In this document: piece after piece, positions 8,816 to 18,878 of the stretch
How the letters are laid out: the number at the start of each line of letters is the position of its first letter
Position numbering within the stretch: position 1 is the first letter of the stretch
The notes under the pieces: generated by a model
Told to the model about the DNA's origin: nothing
Database searches by the model: none
The model's input: only the letters and a program-made list of their open reading frames with translations
Position numbers and translations under genes: made by a program
Source of the DNA: a virus
Reading direction: 5' to 3' (one strand)
DNA: 20,820 bases
Virus record (IMG/VR): IMGVR_UViG_3300025892_002243
Coordinates: 1 to 20,820 of that record

Positions 8816-9726
8816 AAAAATTATGGGTAGAAGCATACCGTCCTAAAACTGTAGACGGTTATGTGTTTAGGGATCAAGGACAAAAGAGACAGATTGAAAC
8901 TTGGATTAAAGATAAAAGTATTCCACATTTGTTGTTTAGTGGTTCAGCAGGCATTGGTAAGACAACACTTGCTAAAATGCTAATTAGCGAACTAGATATA
9001 CAAGACTTTGATGTATTAGAAATTAACGCAAGTCGTACTAACTCAGTAGATGATGTACGTGATAAAATTATAAACTTTGTACAAATGATTCCGTTTGGTG
9101 ACTTTAAAGTTGTGCTACTTGATGAGGCTGATTACTTGAGTCCAAACGCACAAGCCGCATTACGTGGTGTAATGGAAGAGTATCATAGCACAGCAAGATT
9201 CATGTTAACCTGTAACTATCCTAACAGAATTATTCCTGCTATTCATTCACGTTGTCAAAACTTTCACTTTGAAAAAATTGATCAAACAGAATTTACAGCT
9301 CGAGTAGCAACTATCCTTGTTGAAGAAAACGTTGAGTTTGATTTAGATGTGCTAGACACTTATGTTAAAGTAACATACCCAGACTTACGTAAATGTATCA
9401 ATATGGTACAGCAGAGTGTTATCGAAGATAAACTTGTTGCTCCTAATCAAAGTGATGCTGGCGAAAGCGAGTGGAAGTTTGAAATGGTTGATTTGTTTAA
9501 AGCAGGTAAGATCAATGAAGCACGTAAGATGCTTTGTGGTAAGTTACGTGCCGAAGAGATGGAAGAAGTATTCCGTTGGTTATATGATAATATTGATATA
9601 TTTGGTGAGGAAGACAATCAGCAAAAAGCCATTTTACTAATTAAACAAGGTTTAGTTGACCACACACTTATTAGCGATCCAGAGATTAATCTCTCTGCTA
9701 CATTGATCAAGTTGGGAAGGATATGA
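8812..9726 (+). CDS. 44: Sliding-clamp loader large subunit (T4 gp44-like)
   Basis: A 304-residue AAA+ ATPase close in length to T4 gp44 (319). Near the start it has W-V-E-A-Y-R-P-K, typical of RFC/gp44 proteins. Walker A is GSAGIGKT (residues 44-51), Walker B is VVLLDEAD (D104-E105), sensor 1 lies in LTCNYPNRI, and the arginine-finger SRC motif is at 146-148 (HSRCQ). A C-terminal collar domain follows. It should load the gp45-type clamp onto primed DNA in an ATP-driven complex with the small subunit gp62; neither gp45 nor gp62 lies in this window. It starts by ATGA overlap with the nucleotidyltransferase and ends by ATGA overlap with the ferredoxin. Unlike many T4-like genomes, clamp-loader partners are not adjacent, at least on this side. 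Confidence 0.93.
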
Positions 9727-10052
9727 CATACTTAGTAAATGATAGTTGTATTAAATGTAAACACACAGACTGTGTAGAAGTGTGTCCAGTTGATTGTTTC
9801 TACGAGGGTGAAAACATGCTAGTAATTAGTCCAGACGAATGTATTGATTGCGGTGTATGCGTACCTGAATGTCCTGAAGATGCTATTATTTCAGACAATG
9901 ATGACAGCCTCAAAGAATCTTCTGTAGATTGGCTAGCATACAATACAAATAAATCTGCTGAGTGGCCGAACATTACTGAAAAGCAAGATCCGTATCCCGA
10001 ATACGAAAAGTACCAGATAATGGAAGACCGTATCAAATTTTTAGATGAGTAG
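9723..10052 (+). CDS. fdxA: 7Fe ferredoxin (FdxA-type, [3Fe-4S][4Fe-4S])
   Basis: A 109-residue protein of the usual length for bacterial 7Fe ferredoxins (about 106-112). All nine cysteines match the Azotobacter FdI pattern shifted by one: C9, C12, C17, C21, C25, C40, C43, C46 and C50, with the typical [28 protein letters not shown] text. C9, C17 and C50 should bind the 3Fe cluster and C21, C40, C43 and C46 the 4Fe cluster. The C-terminal half keeps the helical W.NIT...P.P extension of the family. It would be a cytoplasmic low-potential electron carrier. The redox partner is not encoded here. Its start overlaps the clamp-loader stop (ATGA), so the two are translated together, an unexpected pairing. 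It appears intact and functional. Confidence 0.93.
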
Positions 10053-12234: not shown

Positions 12235-13092
12235 ATGCTAACAGCAGAGCAATTTAAAGAACTATTTCCAAGATGCGCAGATCCAGATGGTTGGGTTGAT
12301 GCGATGAACGAAGTATTTCCTAAGTACGAAATTAATACACCACAACGTATTGCGGCATTTATTGCGCAGTGTGGTCATGAATCAGGCGGTTGGAGAGTGT
12401 TCTCTGAAAACCTAAACTACAGCGCAAAAGCTCTCAATGCTGTATTTGGAAAATATTTTGCAAGAGCTGGAAGAGATGCTGATGAGTATCATAGACAACC
12501 CGAAAAAATTGCTAACGTTGTATACGCTAATCGTATGGACAATGGTGATACTGATAGTGGTGATGGCTGGCGTTTTCGTGGACGTGGACCTATCCAGCTA
12601 ACAGGAAAACACAACTATGCTAAGTTTTCTGAAGACATGGACGTAGATGCTGTTGATAATCCAGATATAGTTTCAGAAGATAAAGAGGTAGCACTAATGA
12701 GTGCTATTTGGTATTGGAATTCAAATAACTTAAACCGTTATGCTGATAACAGTGATATTAAAACACTTACTAAACGTATCAACGGCGGATATATTGGTCT
12801 TGAAGATCGTATACATCATTGGGAAATGGCGCTAGAAGCACTAGGCGAAGAAGTAGAAACACACCATGGTAGTGAAGATGAAGACGATTCATTTGATCTA
12901 GATGAGATTGGTGTACTACGCAAAGGTGCTAGAGGCGATGGTGTTAAGATGATGCAAGAAGCATTAGGTATTGGAGCAGACGGAGTATTTGGTCCAGGTA
13001 CTGAACGTGCTTTAAAAGAATGGCAAAGTGCTAACGGCTTAACTGCTGATGGTATTGCTGGTCCAGCCACATTAGGCGAATTACTTAACTAA
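12235..13092 (+). CDS. Endolysin: GH19 chitinase-like domain plus peptidoglycan-binding domain
   Basis: A 285-residue modular endolysin. Residues 1-200 form a GH19/chitinase-like lysozyme domain: catalytic E49 lies in QCGHESGGW, the second acid is E58 in SENLNY, and the conserved FRGRGPIQLTGKHNY and YIGLEDRI blocks follow. After an acidic linker (EDEDDSFDLDE) residues about 222-285 form a PG_binding_1 domain: GVLRKGARGDGVKMMQEAL, then ADGVFGPGTERALKEWQ and DGIAGPATLGELL. It cleaves host peptidoglycan glycan strands at the end of infection. There is no signal peptide, so it would need the holin to reach the wall. It is the first gene of the lysis cassette, three bases after the previous gene and eight before the i-spanin. 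Confidence 0.92.
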   Translation: MLTAEQFKELFPRCADPDGWVDAMNEVFPKYEINTPQRIAAFIAQCGHESGGWRVFSENLNYSAKALNAVFGKYFARAGRDADEYHRQPEKIANVVYANRMDNGDTDSGDGWRFRGRGPIQLTGKHNYAKFSEDMDVDAVDNPDIVSEDKEVALMSAIWYWNSNNLNRYADNSDIKTLTKRINGGYIGLEDRIHHWEMALEALGEEVETHHGSEDEDDSFDLDEIGVLRKGARGDGVKMMQEALGIGADGVFGPGTERALKEWQSANGLTADGIAGPATLGELLN

Positions 13093-13100
13093 ATACACAT

Positions 13101-13526
13101 ATGTTCAGTTCAATTAAAATAGCGTTTGTTCTTGTAATCATTGGTCTTGCTGGTGGCGGATTTCTCTATGTTAAAAAATTACAAAGTGATTTAGAAACTG
13201 CTAGAGCAAATGTTGCTAAGATGGAAATTGCTGTACAAACTAGCGAACAAAGTTTAAAACTAGTACAAAACGAAACTGTAAGACTTGGCAAATTAAACAC
13301 TCAACTAGGTGCTACTTTACAAAAGTCAGAGCAGTACGGAGATGAACTTCGTGCTACTCTAAACAAACATAACTTAACACACTTGGCTAACAAAAAGCCA
13401 GGACCAATTGAAAAGAGGATGCAAAATGCGACTAATAAGCTATGGCGCGATCTTGAGTCTATTACTACTGTCCCTTCAGGGGTGCAGTCTACTGAGACCG
13501 GAACCGCAGATACAAGTAGTAACTAA
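13101..13526 (+). CDS. i-spanin (Rz-like inner-membrane spanin subunit)
   Basis: A 141-residue type II membrane protein: a short N-terminus, one membrane span at about residues 6-24 (IAFVLVIIGLAGGGFLY) followed by KK, and a long periplasmic coiled coil (KLQSDLETARANVAKMEIAVQ and on to ELRATLNKH). The C-terminus is polar and Ser/Thr-rich. This is the typical inner-membrane spanin architecture. Assignment rests on topology, on position directly after the endolysin, and on the overlapping lipoprotein gene at its 3' end (shared bases 13426-13526). Together the two would bridge the periplasm and fuse the inner and outer membranes, implying a Gram-negative host. The start ATG at 13101 has a weak ribosome site, so coupling to the endolysin stop is possible. 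Confidence 0.82.
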   Translation: MFSSIKIAFVLVIIGLAGGGFLYVKKLQSDLETARANVAKMEIAVQTSEQSLKLVQNETVRLGKLNTQLGATLQKSEQYGDELRATLNKHNLTHLANKKPGPIEKRMQNATNKLWRDLESITTVPSGVQSTETGTADTSSN

Positions 13527-13809
13527 CACTGTAAAAACTACTGTACCAATCGTTTCACATCCAAAACCCGTACAAATGAACGACATAAAAATTTATGTTG
13601 TAGCACCTGGTGAAAATTTAGAAGAATTTAAAAAAGAGTTTGAAGCAAAGAACGGCGGAGATGCCTATATTGCTATTAGTATAAAAGATTACGAAAATCT
13701 ATCAAAAAACTTTGCCGAACTAAGACGCTATATAGAACAGCAAAAAGCAATCATATTGTATTATGAAGACGCAGTAAAACCAGAAAAGAAACCATCTAAA
13801 ACAGAATAA
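13426..13809 (+). CDS. o-spanin (Rz1-like outer-membrane lipoprotein)
   Basis: Starting at the ATG at 13426 this encodes 127 residues in the +1 frame relative to the i-spanin, overlapping it by 101 bases. The N-terminus is a lipoprotein signal: MRLISYGAILSLLLLSLQGC, with the lipobox LQGC placing the lipidated Cys at residue 20. I chose this start over the TTG at 13408 because AGAGG lies seven bases upstream and the signal peptide is then normal. The mature part begins Pro-rich, contains IKIYVVAPGENL, and ends in a coiled-coil-like helix (ENLSKNFAELRRYIEQQKAII) and a basic tail. It is longer than lambda Rz1. Partner: the i-spanin. Confidence 0.85.
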   Translation: MRLISYGAILSLLLLSLQGCSLLRPEPQIQVVTNTVKTTVPIVSHPKPVQMNDIKIYVVAPGENLEEFKKEFEAKNGGDAYIAISIKDYENLSKNFAELRRYIEQQKAIILYYEDAVKPEKKPSKTE

Positions 13810-13812
13810 ATA
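13805..13812 (+). promoter_or_regulatory. Candidate T4-type late promoter box AATAAATA
   Basis: AATAAATA spans the stop of the o-spanin gene and lies 23 bases before the ATG at 13836, with AAGGAG in between. It would give the holin candidate, and possibly the dnaJ-def-clpA operon, its own late transcription. It overlaps coding sequence at its left end, so chance is possible. Confidence 0.4.
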
Positions 13813-13835
13813 TTTTTGTCATAAGGAGCGATTAA

Positions 13836-14165
13836 ATGGACGAAGAAATTAAAGCATCAGGTCACCATCCAGCAGATACAAACGGCGATGGTAAAGTAAG
13901 TGAAAAAGAGCAAGCAATGTATCTAGAGTTCAAACGTAAAGAACTTGAAGATGCCGATGCGATGCGTGACGCACAACGCAATATGGCATGGTTCGCATTG
14001 TTTGGTATGTTACTATACCCGTTTGCTGTTGTTCTAGCAGTTCTTATTGGTTTAGACCAAGCAAGTAAAATTCTTGGTGACATGGCTAGTGTATACTTCG
14101 TTTCAGTTGCAGCTATTGTAGCGGCATTCTTTGGAACACAAGCAATGGGCAGTAAGAAAAAGTAA
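13836..14165 (+). CDS. EF-hand membrane protein, candidate holin
   Basis: A 109-residue protein with an AAGGAG ribosome site. Residues 14-25 (DTNGDGKVSEKE) form a complete EF-hand calcium loop, with D14, N16, D18, K20 (backbone), S22 and E25 in the six coordinating positions. An amphipathic charged helix (about 27-48) follows, then two membrane spans, about 51-73 (WFALFGMLLYPFAVVLAVLIGL) and 83-103 (MASVYFVSVAAIVAAFFGTQA), and a basic KKK tail. Two spans with a charged tail, placed directly after the endolysin and spanins, fit a class II holin; no other holin is seen in the window. The EF-hand suggests that calcium might influence assembly or timing, which is inference. It could also be an unrelated small membrane protein. 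Confidence 0.7.
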   Translation: MDEEIKASGHHPADTNGDGKVSEKEQAMYLEFKRKELEDADAMRDAQRNMAWFALFGMLLYPFAVVLAVLIGLDQASKILGDMASVYFVSVAAIVAAFFGTQAMGSKKK

Positions 14166-14183
14166 TTCAAGAAATAAAATACT

Positions 14184-14249
14184 AAACGCCTAGAGTGCTA
14201 AGTAATTGTATGGATTACTATGATACCTTAGGCGTTTCTAAGAACGCCT
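14184..14249 (+). promoter_or_regulatory. Nested and alternative hairpins around the dnaJ start codon
   Basis: Three arms are visible. A (AAACGCCTA, 14184-14192) pairs with B (TAGGCGTTT, 14229-14237). B alternatively pairs with C (GAACGCCT, 14242-14249), leaving a CTAA loop. Inside A-B, AGTAAT (14201-14206) and ATTACT (14214-14219) form a second stem whose seven-base loop contains the start ATG (14210-14212). The A-B form buries the start region; the B-C form frees it. The complementarity is visible in the sequence; the regulatory role is inferred. Confidence 0.5.
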
Positions 14250-15040
14250 CCGATAAAGAAATTAAAACAGCATTTCGCAAACTTGCGGGACAGCATCACC
14301 CCGACAAAGGCGGTGATCATAAAAAGTTTGTAGAAATAAAAGAAGCATACGAAGGTCTAAGTGATCCACAAAAAAGACAAATGTATGATCAATTCGGAAC
14401 AACTAATCCCCAACAAAGGCAACGCCAATATACGTCACAAAATTTTCACGGTGGCGGAATGGATGATATTTTTAATCAAATGTTTGGCAACTTTGGTATG
14501 GGGCAAAGACAACGTAGCAATAACACTATCCAAGCAGACGTACAAATTGAACTTGAAGATGTATTATACGGTAAATCAATTGATGCTGAAGTAGGCTTTA
14601 AAAACGGACATACTAAGTTAGTTACTATTAATATACCAAAAGGCGTGTATCATGGTAGTCAAATTAGATATCAAGGAATGGGCGATCACAGCAATCCTAA
14701 GTTACCTCCCGGTGACTTAATTGTACGTGTTAATGTTAAACAACATTATCAGTTTAAAAGACAAGAAGACAACCTTTATATTGATCAACACATAAGCGTA
14801 TATGATGCTATACTAGGTACTGACATAAAAGTAACAACATTAGATAGAAAAACATTTACTGTAACAGTACCAGCAGGGTCACAACCAGACACTGTTCTTA
14901 GTTGTAAAGGAGAAGGCTTACCCAACCCTCACAACAATAACAGGGGTAACTTGTTAATTAGAGTTAAGGTAACAGTTCCAAAAGGACTATCAAAGAAACA
15001 TATTAGAACATTGGCGGATTTAAGAGATGGCAGAATTTAA
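14210..15040 (+). CDS. dnaJ: DnaJ/Hsp40 co-chaperone, type II (CbpA-like, no zinc domain)
   Basis: Starting at the ATG at 14210 this encodes 276 residues. I prefer it to the GTG at 14195 because J-domain proteins begin exactly at MDYYDTLGVSK. The J domain spans residues 1-65 with the HPD motif at 30-32. A Gly/Gln/Phe-rich linker follows (HGGGMDDIFNQMFGNFGMG). Two CTD-type beta domains come next, with no CxxCxGxG zinc repeats: ADVQIELEDVLYGKS, then DLIVRVNVKQHYQFKRQEDNLY, PAGSQPDTVLSCKGEGLP and LLIRVKVTVPKGL. It would stimulate the DnaK ATPase; no DnaK is in the window, so the host's is presumably used. It overlaps the deformylase gene by 14 bases. The start region is structured, with no strong ribosome site. 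Confidence 0.9.
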   Translation: MDYYDTLGVSKNASDKEIKTAFRKLAGQHHPDKGGDHKKFVEIKEAYEGLSDPQKRQMYDQFGTTNPQQRQRQYTSQNFHGGGMDDIFNQMFGNFGMGQRQRSNNTIQADVQIELEDVLYGKSIDAEVGFKNGHTKLVTINIPKGVYHGSQIRYQGMGDHSNPKLPPGDLIVRVNVKQHYQFKRQEDNLYIDQHISVYDAILGTDIKVTTLDRKTFTVTVPAGSQPDTVLSCKGEGLPNPHNNNRGNLLIRVKVTVPKGLSKKHIRTLADLRDGRI

Positions 15041-15539
15041 ATTAGGACAGCACGAATCACTTTATCAAAAAAGCGAGCCTTGGAACTTTGACCGTGATAC
15101 TGATGCTGTAAAATTAGAAAAAGACATGTGCGAATTTATGATTGAAAATAAAGGCATTGGACTTTCAGCAAATCAAATAGGATTGCTTAAAAGAGTTTTT
15201 GTAATGGGCAGTACAAGTATTCCAGGATTTCCTAAACCTTTTGCAGTTTTTAATCCAGAAATTACAAATTACAGTAATACTAATATATCAGACGAGGAAG
15301 GATGTTTAAGTTTTCCAGGTTTGTATTTTAAAGTTTCTAGGCCTGAATGGATAGAAGCAAAGTTTCAGGATAGAGAAGGCAATGTACATGAAGTGAAAAT
15401 GGATGGATATGTTGCTAAATGTTTCCAACATGAGCTTGATCATTTAGAAGGAATATGTTATACTGATAGAGTTAGTAAATTAAAAATAGATCTTGCTATT
15501 AAAAAGATGAGGAAAAAGAATAAACATGCTAGAACCTAG
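15027..15539 (+). CDS. def: Peptide deformylase
   Basis: A 170-residue protein of the usual deformylase length. All three family motifs are intact: motif 1 GIGLSANQ (residues 43-50), motif 2 EGCLSFP (E91-G-C93-L-S), and motif 3 HELDH (135-139). Metal ligands are C93, H135 and H139, and the catalytic Glu is E136. It removes the formyl group from new polypeptides, the step before methionine excision, using host ribosomes as its site of action. Phage copies are known from marine myoviruses and are thought to keep translation of phage proteins, or of photosystem proteins in cyanophages, moving. It overlaps dnaJ upstream and clpA downstream by 14 bases each and has no obvious ribosome site of its own, so it is probably translated by coupling. 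Confidence 0.93.
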   Translation: MAEFKLGQHESLYQKSEPWNFDRDTDAVKLEKDMCEFMIENKGIGLSANQIGLLKRVFVMGSTSIPGFPKPFAVFNPEITNYSNTNISDEEGCLSFPGLYFKVSRPEWIEAKFQDREGNVHEVKMDGYVAKCFQHELDHLEGICYTDRVSKLKIDLAIKKMRKKNKHART

Positions 15540-17865
15540 TGATAAATTACAGGCAATATTTGAACATGCCATTACAACCGCTCGAAAGTTAAAACACGAG
15601 TATGTTACAATTGAACATCTAATGTTTAGTATTATGTGCGACAGCGACACATATAGATCACTAGAAGAGTTCGGTGCGAAGTCTGATTACATTAAAGCTA
15701 ATCTAGAACATTATTTAAAAAACAATTTAACTGATTTGGTAACTGAAAGTACAGAAAAGCCAAAACGTACAAACAGTGTAGAACGTGCTTTAAATAGAGC
15801 GTTTACACAAACATTATTCAGTGGAAGAAATAGAATTGAAATCGAAGATATGATACTGTCTGTGTTAGGTGAAAAGAAAAGTTTTGCTTACTACTACTTA
15901 ACCAAAGGCAATATTAATAAAGATAAGTTTTTAGAATACTTTACTGATCGCTTTGAAGGCGAACTACTTGAACATGAAGATGAACAAAAACTTTCACAAG
16001 GGCAGTTAGATAAAATTCTGAATTCATATTGTGATAATTTAACACTTAAAGCAAAGCAAAAGAAAATTGATCCTCTTATTGGTCGTGCTACAGAACTTGA
16101 GGATATTCAATTAGTACTAGCAAGACGTATGAAGTCTAATGTACTTCTAATTGGAGAGCCAGGTGTAGGTAAAACTGCCCTTGCTGAAGGACTTGCTTTA
16201 AAAATTGTACAAGGAAAAGTTCCTTCATTTATTAAAAATCATGTAGTATGGACACTTGATATTTCAGCACTACTAGCAGGAAGCAAGTATAGAGGTGACT
16301 TTGAAGAAAGACTAAAAGCAGTTCTTAAAGCATTAGAAAAGAAAGGCAATGTGATCTTATTCATTGACGAAGCACATATGATGGAAGGTGCGGGTGCGGC
16401 AAATGGTAGTTCAAATGATCTAGCAAACATGTTAAAGCCAATGCTAACTAAGGGAACTATGAAAGTTATTGCTTCGACAACTTGGGAAGAGTATCGCAAG
16501 CACTTTGAAAAAGATCGTGCGCTTATGCGTAGATTCCAGCGTGTAACAGTTGACGAGCCTAGTTCAGAACTTACAGTTAAAATTATACGTGGTCTTAGAC
16601 GTTACTACGAACAGTTTCATAAAGTTAAAATTACAGACGGCGCTATTGACCAAGCAGTTAAGATGTCTGTAAAGTATATGACAGACAAAAAATTACCAGA
16701 CAAAGCAATTGATATTATTGATTGTGCGTGTGCTAGATATAAAGTTAAAGATGTAGATGTAGGGGACGAAGTTAATTTTGTTGACATTGAACAAATCATG
16801 TACGAAGTTAGTAAGATGACTAATATTCCAATGGAGAATGTGTCACAAAGAGAAAGTGAAACACTTGCTAATCTAGAACACAGTCTTAAAAACAGTGTGT
16901 TTGGACAAGACGTAGCAATTGAAAACTTGCTTGATAAAATCTTTGTATCACAATCAGGTATGAAAGCAAACGACAAACCTATTGGTTGTTTCTTGTTTGT
17001 TGGACCTACAGGTTGTGGTAAAACTGAAACAGCAAAACAACTTTCAGAAAAGATGAGTATGCCCTTAGTACGTTTTGACATGAGTGAATATCAAGAAAAA
17101 CACAGCGTTGCTAAACTAATTGGTTCGCCTCCAGGGTATGTAGGATACGAAGAAGATGCTGGTCAGCTTATTACACAACTACAAGAAAATCCTAATTGTG
17201 TACTATTGTTAGACGAAGTAGAGAAAGCACACAAAGATGTGTCAAACATCTTATTACAAATTATGGATAACGGATTTGTTACAGGCGGCAACGGTAAAAA
17301 AGCAGATGCTCGTAATTCTATTGTTATTATGACATCAAACTTGGGTGCGGCAGATAACGAACGCAACAGTATTGGCTTTGACGATCTTGAAGTAAACGAC
17401 GAAGATCTAAAAGCAGTTAAAAAATATTTTGCTCCGGAGTTTAGAAACAGACTAGACTCAGTTGTACGTTTTGAAAAACTTGCTCCAGAAAGTGTACGTG
17501 TTATTGTAGATAAGTTTATCAAAGAACTTAATGATCAAATCAAAGACAAGCATGTTGAGATTATTTTAGATGGACCATCAAGAGAATGGTTGTCTGAAAA
17601 AGGATACAGTCCTAAAATGGGTGCTAGACCTTTGAGTCGAATCATTGATAAAAATATTAAATCACCGCTTAGTAGACGTATGCTATTTGGAGATTTAAAA
17701 GAAGGTGGACGAGTGTTTGTTACTATTAAAGATAACGAGCTTGCTTTTGATATTGTTAACTTAGGTGATGAATTAGATAAGTTTCAAAGACGAGCTTTAA
17801 AAGGCCACAATAGAATACAGAAAGGGAATCTGTTACCAAATGCCGTTAGTACACAAAGAAACTAA
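15526..17865 (+). CDS. clpA: ClpA-like AAA+ unfoldase with two ATPase domains and IGF loop
   Basis: A 779-residue protein close to E. coli ClpA (758). Order: an N-domain (residues 1-150, starting in [27 protein letters not shown]), AAA1 with Walker A GEPGVGKT (210-217) and Walker B ILFIDEAH (D281-E282), then AAA2 with Walker A GPTGCGKT (493-500), Walker [11 protein letters not shown] (D563-E564), and the EFRNRLD arginine-finger region. There is no long coiled-coil M domain between the two ATPase domains, which argues against ClpB and ClpC. The tripeptide IGF at 616-618 sits where ClpA has its IGL ClpP-docking loop. No clpP is in the window, so docking onto host ClpP is inferred. It overlaps the deformylase gene by 14 bases and the next gene by 26. 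Confidence 0.93.
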
Positions 17866-18523
17866 AAAACTTTTCTATAACAAATGGATCTATAAGATTG
17901 GATTAAGTATCCAAGGTTGTAGCATTCTCCGAATGAAAACTGGGCAAGCCCTAGAAGATTTTTTAAGTGAACTACCTTTTAGCTTTCCAGGATTACAACA
18001 TTCTGGTAGCTTACAAGCAAGAGCTATGAATTCAAAAGGCACACTAATTAAATTAAACTTGCTATTACAATCATACGACAAGAAAACATACTCTAGAAGA
18101 ATAGAAGGTGAATTCTTTGACATATACACAAACAATAAAAATATTATTTCAGAAATCCAAAGAGAGTTTGCCACATATGTTAGATTAATATCAAAACCAA
18201 AAGTTAAAAATATTGATCTTTTATTAAAAAACGAACATTCGATTTTTGTACGCTCTTTGCCTAAAGAAAAATACGAATACAGAGTATATCTTAAACCGCA
18301 TAGAGTTGACCAAGACAAGAAGTCCAGTTTCTTATCTTGGTTAGAAACACAAGGAGATGCTACATCTATTAGTCCAAGTTTGATTGATTGGTTTACTAAG
18401 TGTAGTATGAACTGGGACAGACGCTATATTTTAGTCGACAATGATAAAACACTGTTAATGATTAAGTTACACACACCAGACGCAGTAGGCACAGTGTACA
18501 AATACCAAGTAACGGATAAATAA
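17840..18523 (+). CDS. Protein of unknown function
   Basis: A 227-residue basic protein starting inside the end of clpA (26-base overlap); AAAGGGA about a dozen bases upstream is the only ribosome-site candidate. I do not recognise its function. Visible traits: an N-terminus [19 protein letters not shown], a central alpha/beta part with IEGEFFDIYTNNKNIISEI, then YRVYLKPHRV, a helix with SFLSWLETQG, and the conserved-looking end WDRRYILVDNDKTLLMIKL followed by GTVYKYQV. The pattern of strands and the RYI.VDNDKTLLMIKL block suggests a nucleic-acid-binding or nuclease-like alpha/beta protein, but no catalytic motif is clear. It lies between the proteostasis operon and a structural gene. Confidence 0.6.
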   Translation: MPLVHKETKKLFYNKWIYKIGLSIQGCSILRMKTGQALEDFLSELPFSFPGLQHSGSLQARAMNSKGTLIKLNLLLQSYDKKTYSRRIEGEFFDIYTNNKNIISEIQREFATYVRLISKPKVKNIDLLLKNEHSIFVRSLPKEKYEYRVYLKPHRVDQDKKSSFLSWLETQGDATSISPSLIDWFTKCSMNWDRRYILVDNDKTLLMIKLHTPDAVGTVYKYQVTDK

Positions 18524-18527
18524 TAGT

Positions 18528-18878
18528 ATGCCAACACAAAGTATTGTATTATTAACGAACGAATCAACAGAAGCAGTAAACAGCGCCACCTACTCTTATT
18601 CAGAGAAACAAAAAGGCGATGGTTACTATAATCTAGGTGACGGGTTACATACTGTAACTTACCGTACAGATTCCTTTGAAGGAACTATTAAGATTCAAGG
18701 AACACTTGCTATGACACCTACAGACGATGATTGGTTTGATATTACAGGTACTGATTTTGGAACAGACAGCACTTCCGAAACGTCAGCATATCGTAACTTT
18801 ACAGGCAATTTTGTATGGGTTAGAGCCGCATATAACATTGTTGATGGAACAATTTCCGAAATCCGTTATAATCACTAA
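18528..18878 (+). CDS. Small beta-rich protein, probable virion structural
   Basis: A 116-residue protein with almost entirely beta-strand character: SIVLLTNESTEAV, YYNLGDGLHTVTYR, FEGTIKIQGTLAMTPTDDDW, then a NFTGNFVWVRAAYNI strand and IRYNH. The FEGTIKIQGTL...P..DDWFDI.....NFTG.FVWVRA pattern is one I recognise from marine myovirus proteins annotated as structural; it resembles a jelly-roll decoration or tail-completion fold. It starts four bases after the previous stop, with no strong ribosome site. The next gap (52 bases) contains a late promoter box. There are no Cys, no signal and no membrane span. The structural call is by pattern and context only. Confidence 0.6.
   Translation: MPTQSIVLLTNESTEAVNSATYSYSEKQKGDGYYNLGDGLHTVTYRTDSFEGTIKIQGTLAMTPTDDDWFDITGTDFGTDSTSETSAYRNFTGNFVWVRAAYNIVDGTISEIRYNH

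Follow-up and report, generated by a model that had tools for sequence, protein, structure and literature searches.

What does a hairpin around the start codon of a phage dnaJ gene do? The question is raised by an uncultured phage (IMG/VR record IMGVR_UViG_3300025892_002243), of which positions 1 to 20,820, referred to here as the window, were analyzed. The original prediction proposed a candidate regulatory RNA structure at the dnaJ start, in the form of an RNA thermometer or a bistable three-arm switch. Here, we consider the structure, its conservation and the promoters that surround it, and then weigh what its function may be.

The hairpin and its conservation

The three arms proposed for this locus match the sequence exactly, both in position (A, 14184-14192, AAACGCCTA; B, 14229-14237, TAGGCGTTT; C, 14242-14249, GAACGCCT) and in the nine-base complementarity of A and B. 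The A-B stem comprises 10 bp, nine of them Watson-Crick pairs and the other G14193·U14228. Folding confirms that the AUG lies in the loop of a further stem inside A-B; this inner stem has 7 bp, and its loop of five nucleotides (14208-14212) reads GUAUG (Table 1). An upstream in-frame GTG at 14195 was considered as an alternative start. It is TTG in the closest relative (L002) and is replaced by a non-start codon in L126; hence, we take the ATG as the dnaJ start.

Table 1. Features of the dnaJ region, in window coordinates
Feature	Position	Strand	Basis
Holin-like small membrane protein gene, co-directional; putative read-through source	13836..14165	+	by inspection; no family match
Arm A, 5′ arm of hairpin, non-coding	14184..14193	+	pairs with 14228-14237; co-varies with arm B in relatives
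Candidate T4-late-like promoter element GCTAAGTA	14197..14204	+	5 nt before ATG; NTAAGTA-N5-ATG in 29/30 class loci
Inner stem, 5′ side	14201..14207	+	fold; not kept as such in L002, hence secondary
dnaJ (DnaJ and DnaJ_C domains)	14210..15040	+	Pfam
dnaJ AUG in 5-nt loop; putative transcription start of leaderless mRNA	14210..14212	+	fold; NTAAGTA 5 nt upstream in 29/30 class loci
Inner stem, 3′ side, codons 2-4	14213..14219	+	fold
Arm B, 3′ arm, dnaJ codons 7-10 (Leu-Gly-Val-Ser)	14228..14237	+	synonymous GGC/GGT change compensated in arm A
Arm C, able to pair with 14230-14237; mostly coding by-product	14242..14249	+	fold and codon-usage expectation
Peptide deformylase and ClpA-type ATPase genes, downstream of dnaJ	15027..17865	+	Pfam

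The predicted free energy of the 57-nt hairpin is -20.3 kcal/mol. None of 200 shuffled sequences (mean, -8.95 kcal/mol) is as stable, giving a z-score of -4.73. Pairing across the start, between the 50 nt before it and the 42 nt after it, amounts to -21.0 kcal/mol for dnaJ, whereas the remaining 23 window genes range from -3.7 to -14.8 kcal/mol. Among 551 further starts taken from related contigs, just 0.5% reach -21. By the cost of opening the whole initiation region (-20 to +15 and similar stretches), dnaJ ranks merely third to fifth among the 24 window genes, which is high but not extreme.

Relatives were drawn from viral contigs and include one close locus (L002, DnaJ 78% identical) and many at about 35-50% identity, for 111 distinct dnaJ starts. 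In L002, where arm A is AAACACCTA and arm B is TAGGTGTTT, a G-C pair of the window is replaced by an A-U pair. The outer stem of L002 is one pair longer than that of the window, and its inner stem is partly broken. In alignment A9, which has the window among its 20 loci, the outer stem is paired in 90.2% of cells, as compared to 25-48% when the register is slid. Four pairs of this alignment are changed on both sides, and the covariation score is reached by none of 500 shuffles, which ignore relatedness. The same covariation picture emerges from a gapless alignment of sigma70-class loci (A8), and RNAalifold finds two similar nested helices unprompted. On the DnaJ tree, three independent comparisons show a change of the Gly codon between GGC and GGT. 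Arm A has changed to match in two of these, and in the third the stem survives through a G·U pair; compensated changes at this best pair are thus few (two of three independent), and a sign test on them is unable to reach significance.

Stems built from other sequences are also seen, and these too bury the AUG. The different arms of L126 pair over 13 bp, with the AUG inside the stem (z = -7.3), and those of L121 pair over 12 bp (z = -6.0); in L131, several pairs of the retained stem are G·U. Conservation of the inner stem is weaker than that of A-B, and no clear A-B stem is apparent in the related loci L006, L007, L013 and L034. In the named phages Atu_ph07 and Phosso, cross-start pairing is ordinary or only moderate (-11.1 and -15.8 kcal/mol, respectively). 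When arms were swapped between loci, the mean favored a locus's own pairing (-18.8 versus -14.1), yet the arm of another locus frequently paired better still, as arms are shared among close relatives. We rely on the covariation counts instead. By the change in L002, the counts in A9 and the DnaJ tree, arm A co-varies with arm B among relatives; the original prediction had named a lack of such covariation as its refutation, and it withstands that test. This covariation and the stability of the hairpin support the idea of a regulatory RNA structure at the dnaJ start, and the modeled hairpin is, as an observation, real.

Gene neighborhood and promoters

Upstream of dnaJ and transcribed in the same direction are genes for an endolysin, Rz-like spanins and the small holin-like membrane protein. 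The stop codon of the last lies 44 nt before the dnaJ ATG in the window, and the corresponding distance is 34-51 nt in most hairpin loci. No terminator-like site was found in 13700-14400, and A-B itself, when considered as an intrinsic terminator, has no U-run. The dnaJ, peptide deformylase and ClpA-type ATPase genes probably constitute an operon. The order dnaJ-def-clpA (14210-17865 in the window, and also in L180) is common to Sinorhizobium phage Phosso, at less than 46% protein identity; dnaJ and clpA are neighbors in both Atu_ph07 and Phosso, with def between them in the latter. Elsewhere in the window, an ORF with two 4Fe-4S-type cysteine clusters (ferredoxin-like) lies between the clamp-loader gene and phoH (9723-10052), and the protein encoded at 20-1105 carries a subtilisin-like GTSMASP motif, its PHROGs matches being protease and tail fibre families.

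Most hairpin loci lack a terminator upstream of dnaJ, whereas another, hairpin-less clade has terminators there that overlap the promoter (for example, L010, L033, L046 and L138), as though this position had been given another kind of insulator. Intrinsic terminators (AAAGGTATAGTAT...ACTATACCTTTTTT) overlap the dnaJ promoter region in L010, L032, L033, L046, L055, L138, L139, L146 and L149, and in several of these loci a TATAAT-like hexamer falls within the terminator's own stem and loop. A further arrangement is found in L095, L098, L104, L112 and L129, where the dnaJ leader AGGATTGCTTAAGGAGGATCCT forms a short inverted repeat with a strong Shine-Dalgarno (SD) sequence in its loop and 3′ arm. 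This leader is possibly another start-masking device.

The promoters before dnaJ fall into two classes. In the sigma70 class of 53 loci, a perfect TTGACA with a 17-nt spacer is present in 35, a perfect TATAAT in 40, and the -10 element ends 6-7 nt before the ATG in 50; the promoter of L022 matches at 12/12 positions. Where these loci have the hairpin, arm A sits in the spacer of TTGACA-17-TATAAT. The second class, NTAAGTA, comprises 30 loci including the window, and in all but one of them the motif stands exactly 5 nt from the ATG. The window's own late-type element is non-consensus, and no sigma70 promoter was found before dnaJ in the window. In both classes, no SD-like 4-mer is present at -16 to -4 of dnaJ, whereas many other window genes do have an SD. 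Given a promoter at a fixed distance and no SD, the gene's own mRNA should be leaderless, probably starting at or beside the A of the ATG and thus without arm A. In that case, whether A-B forms would be decided by the transcript that is made, rather than by refolding.

The motif ATAAATA, which precedes other ATGs in the same contigs, would provide independent support for leaderless starts. It occurs 27 times at a spacing of 5 nt (21 and 6 in the two classes), versus 0-3 and 0-1 cases in the two classes at other spacings. The starts with 5-nt spacing mostly precede ORFs of at least 70 codons, and no strong hairpin is seen at them. In the window, ATAAATA or CTAAATA is found exactly 5 nt before the ATG at 13089-13103 (Rz-like spanin) and 18516-18530 (virion-type protein), and such sites recur in many of the other loci. 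The pattern suggests that leaderless late transcripts may be routine in these phages.

Possible functions of the hairpin

We consider it probable that the dnaJ hairpin is a transcript-selective translational silencer or insulator, much like that of T4 gene e but acting with a leaderless mRNA. Transcripts that run on from the lysis genes upstream would carry arm A and fold A-B around the SD-less AUG, and dnaJ would not be translated from them. The gene's own promoter appears to be nested in the hairpin, with its element or spacer overlapping or abutting arm A. The first nucleotide transcribed from this promoter would be the A of the ATG or an immediate neighbor, yielding a leaderless mRNA that lacks arm A and can be translated. 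As a consequence, dnaJ, and probably def and clpA behind it, would be timed by their own promoter, independently of the lysis cassette. What the analysis shows is a predicted hairpin with its covariation, promoter-like sequences at a fixed distance from the ATG, a missing SD and the order of the genes; we infer where transcription starts, that translation is leaderless, that transcription reads through from upstream and that the hairpin represses. At 20 °C, the predicted cost of opening +1 to +15 in 20 loci is 3.9-17.7 kcal/mol in read-through RNA versus 1.0-5.7 kcal/mol in leaderless RNA. In T4-like phages, sigma70-type promoters are used early and lysis genes are expressed late, so the device would prevent synthesis of DnaJ alongside the lysis proteins. 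The timing of dnaJ is less clear in the lineage of the window itself, given its late-like element.

Other functions can be envisaged. One, which we regard as unlikely, is that the inverted repeat acts as DNA, its arms being operator half-sites to either side of the promoter and transcription start. A repressor encoded by the phage or the host would bind them, perhaps with formation of a loop. Operators are commonly situated between -35 and -10, and this is where arm A lies in sigma70-class relatives; the arm sequence AAACGCCTAA is also fairly constant in that group. However, the dnaJ arms conserve neither the sequence nor the spacing of half-sites. The distance from arm start to arm start is 45 nt in the window and 49 nt in the sigma70 group, and pairing persists in L126, L120, L079, L131 and L121 even though their arm sequences differ. 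Wherever a transition has altered just one side of a core pair, a G·U pair is left, which also argues against an operator, albeit as a weak test, since five of the seven sites could only give G·U. The inner stem, moreover, adds to the RNA fold. A specific candidate, the CIRCE/HrcA operator, was considered as well: GAGTGCTAA at 14193-14201 is identical to the right half of CIRCE. However, the window has no counterpart of the left half, GAGTGCTAA is not kept in L002, and the likeness is probably due to chance.

A role in RNA processing or stability rather than in translational silencing, with the hairpin serving as an RNase III site or protecting the 3′ end of the upstream lysis transcript, is likewise improbable in our view. 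A long imperfect hairpin about 20 nt past the upstream stop codon could be cut by RNase III, which may also separate the cistrons. Yet arms of differing position and sequence all enclose the AUG (L126, L120 and L020), something that processing does not require, and nothing like the U-run of a terminator is present.

The proposal of an RNA thermometer or a bistable three-arm switch fares worse still, and we see very little likelihood in it. dnaJ is a heat-shock-type gene, and folding bears out that A-B and B-C, the latter a hairpin with a 4-nt loop inside the coding sequence, exclude each other. However, in shorter folds that start at or near arm A, no melting of A-B is predicted over the range 15-60 °C. 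A longer fold of 131 nt has B-C as the preferred helix at 15-30 °C, which gives way to A-B upon further warming; heat induction would call for the opposite. In read-through RNA, the start becomes gradually easier to open, at a cost of 8.6 kcal/mol at 5 °C and 4.0 kcal/mol at 50 °C, with no thermometer-like transition. Known RNA thermometers have imperfect stems that melt gradually; the A-B stem is long and contiguous. Like the ROSE and fourU elements, dnaJ is a heat-shock-type gene with its start region in a hairpin, but this hairpin has no SD to mask, no predicted melting in the biological range and no Rfam match, with no Rfam family (ROSE and fourU included) at gathering score anywhere in the window. 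The gene's own transcript, furthermore, would lack arm A altogether. With respect to the switch, B-C pairs in relatives average 5.37 of 6, somewhat more than the 4.46 expected from codon usage. This pairing is largely a by-product of the codons for G-V-x-x-N-A, in line with the earlier caution that some of the complementarity could stem from coding, and the partly broken inner stem of L002 weakens the three-arm scheme further. Finally, chance complementarity combined with coding constraint is scarcely credible: arm B encodes the conserved LGVS and would be constrained anyway, but the low z-score, the rarity of starts as strong among the background and the covariation of the non-coding arm A all speak against it.

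Implications and comparison with known systems

Returning to the transcript-selective silencer, we lean, by a modest degree, toward a wider version of it. A broad family of uncultured phages may insulate its chaperone operon from the lysis genes by means of a leaderless promoter nested in a start-codon hairpin, with the DNA of the promoter spacer also encoding the arm that silences read-through RNA; this device may alternate across the family with terminators fused to the same promoter position. If so, the T4 gene e device would have a general counterpart that acts on leaderless mRNA. A compact genome would thereby separate two adjacent, co-directional gene groups without a terminator, a single stretch of DNA would serve as both promoter spacer and RNA silencing arm, and a directly testable fate would be assigned to RNA that reads into phage genes. 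Routine leaderless transcription of the late type, from ATAAATA 5 nt before the ATG, would change how starts and promoters are annotated in these phages. Our survey of the open-licence literature found no report of leaderless or hairpin control of a phage dnaJ.

Late promoters provide one point of comparison. Those of T4 have the sequence TATAAATA and those of cyanophage S-PM2 NATAAATA (PMC2984593). Several GATAAATA sites precede genes of the window in like manner, with the element at a fixed distance from the start. The dnaJ element differs in that it is an NTAAGTA variant placed exactly 5 nt before the ATG, and this placement implies leaderless transcripts.

The closest parallel is T4 gene e, which encodes lysozyme. 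Its long early transcripts are silenced by a start-sequestering hairpin and its short late ones are translated, with repression having been measured; soc, gene 49 and I-TevI of T4 likewise carry start-sequestering hairpins (PMC3014915). As in gene e, the initiation region of dnaJ would be buried in a helix when the RNA is initiated upstream (this helix being predicted, and conserved with covariation), and a candidate promoter, recognized by its sequence, lies within the region of the 5′ strand, such that a short RNA would lack that strand. There are also clear differences. The gene here is dnaJ, located behind a lysis cassette, and in many of its relatives the 5′ arm forms the spacer of a sigma70 promoter, which stands in place of a late one. 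The T4 RNAs retain a ribosome binding site upstream of the AUG, whereas dnaJ has no SD and its short RNA would be leaderless. With no SD before dnaJ to be either sequestered or kept, the hairpin is therefore best described as a variant of the T4 gene e type rather than a strict member of it.
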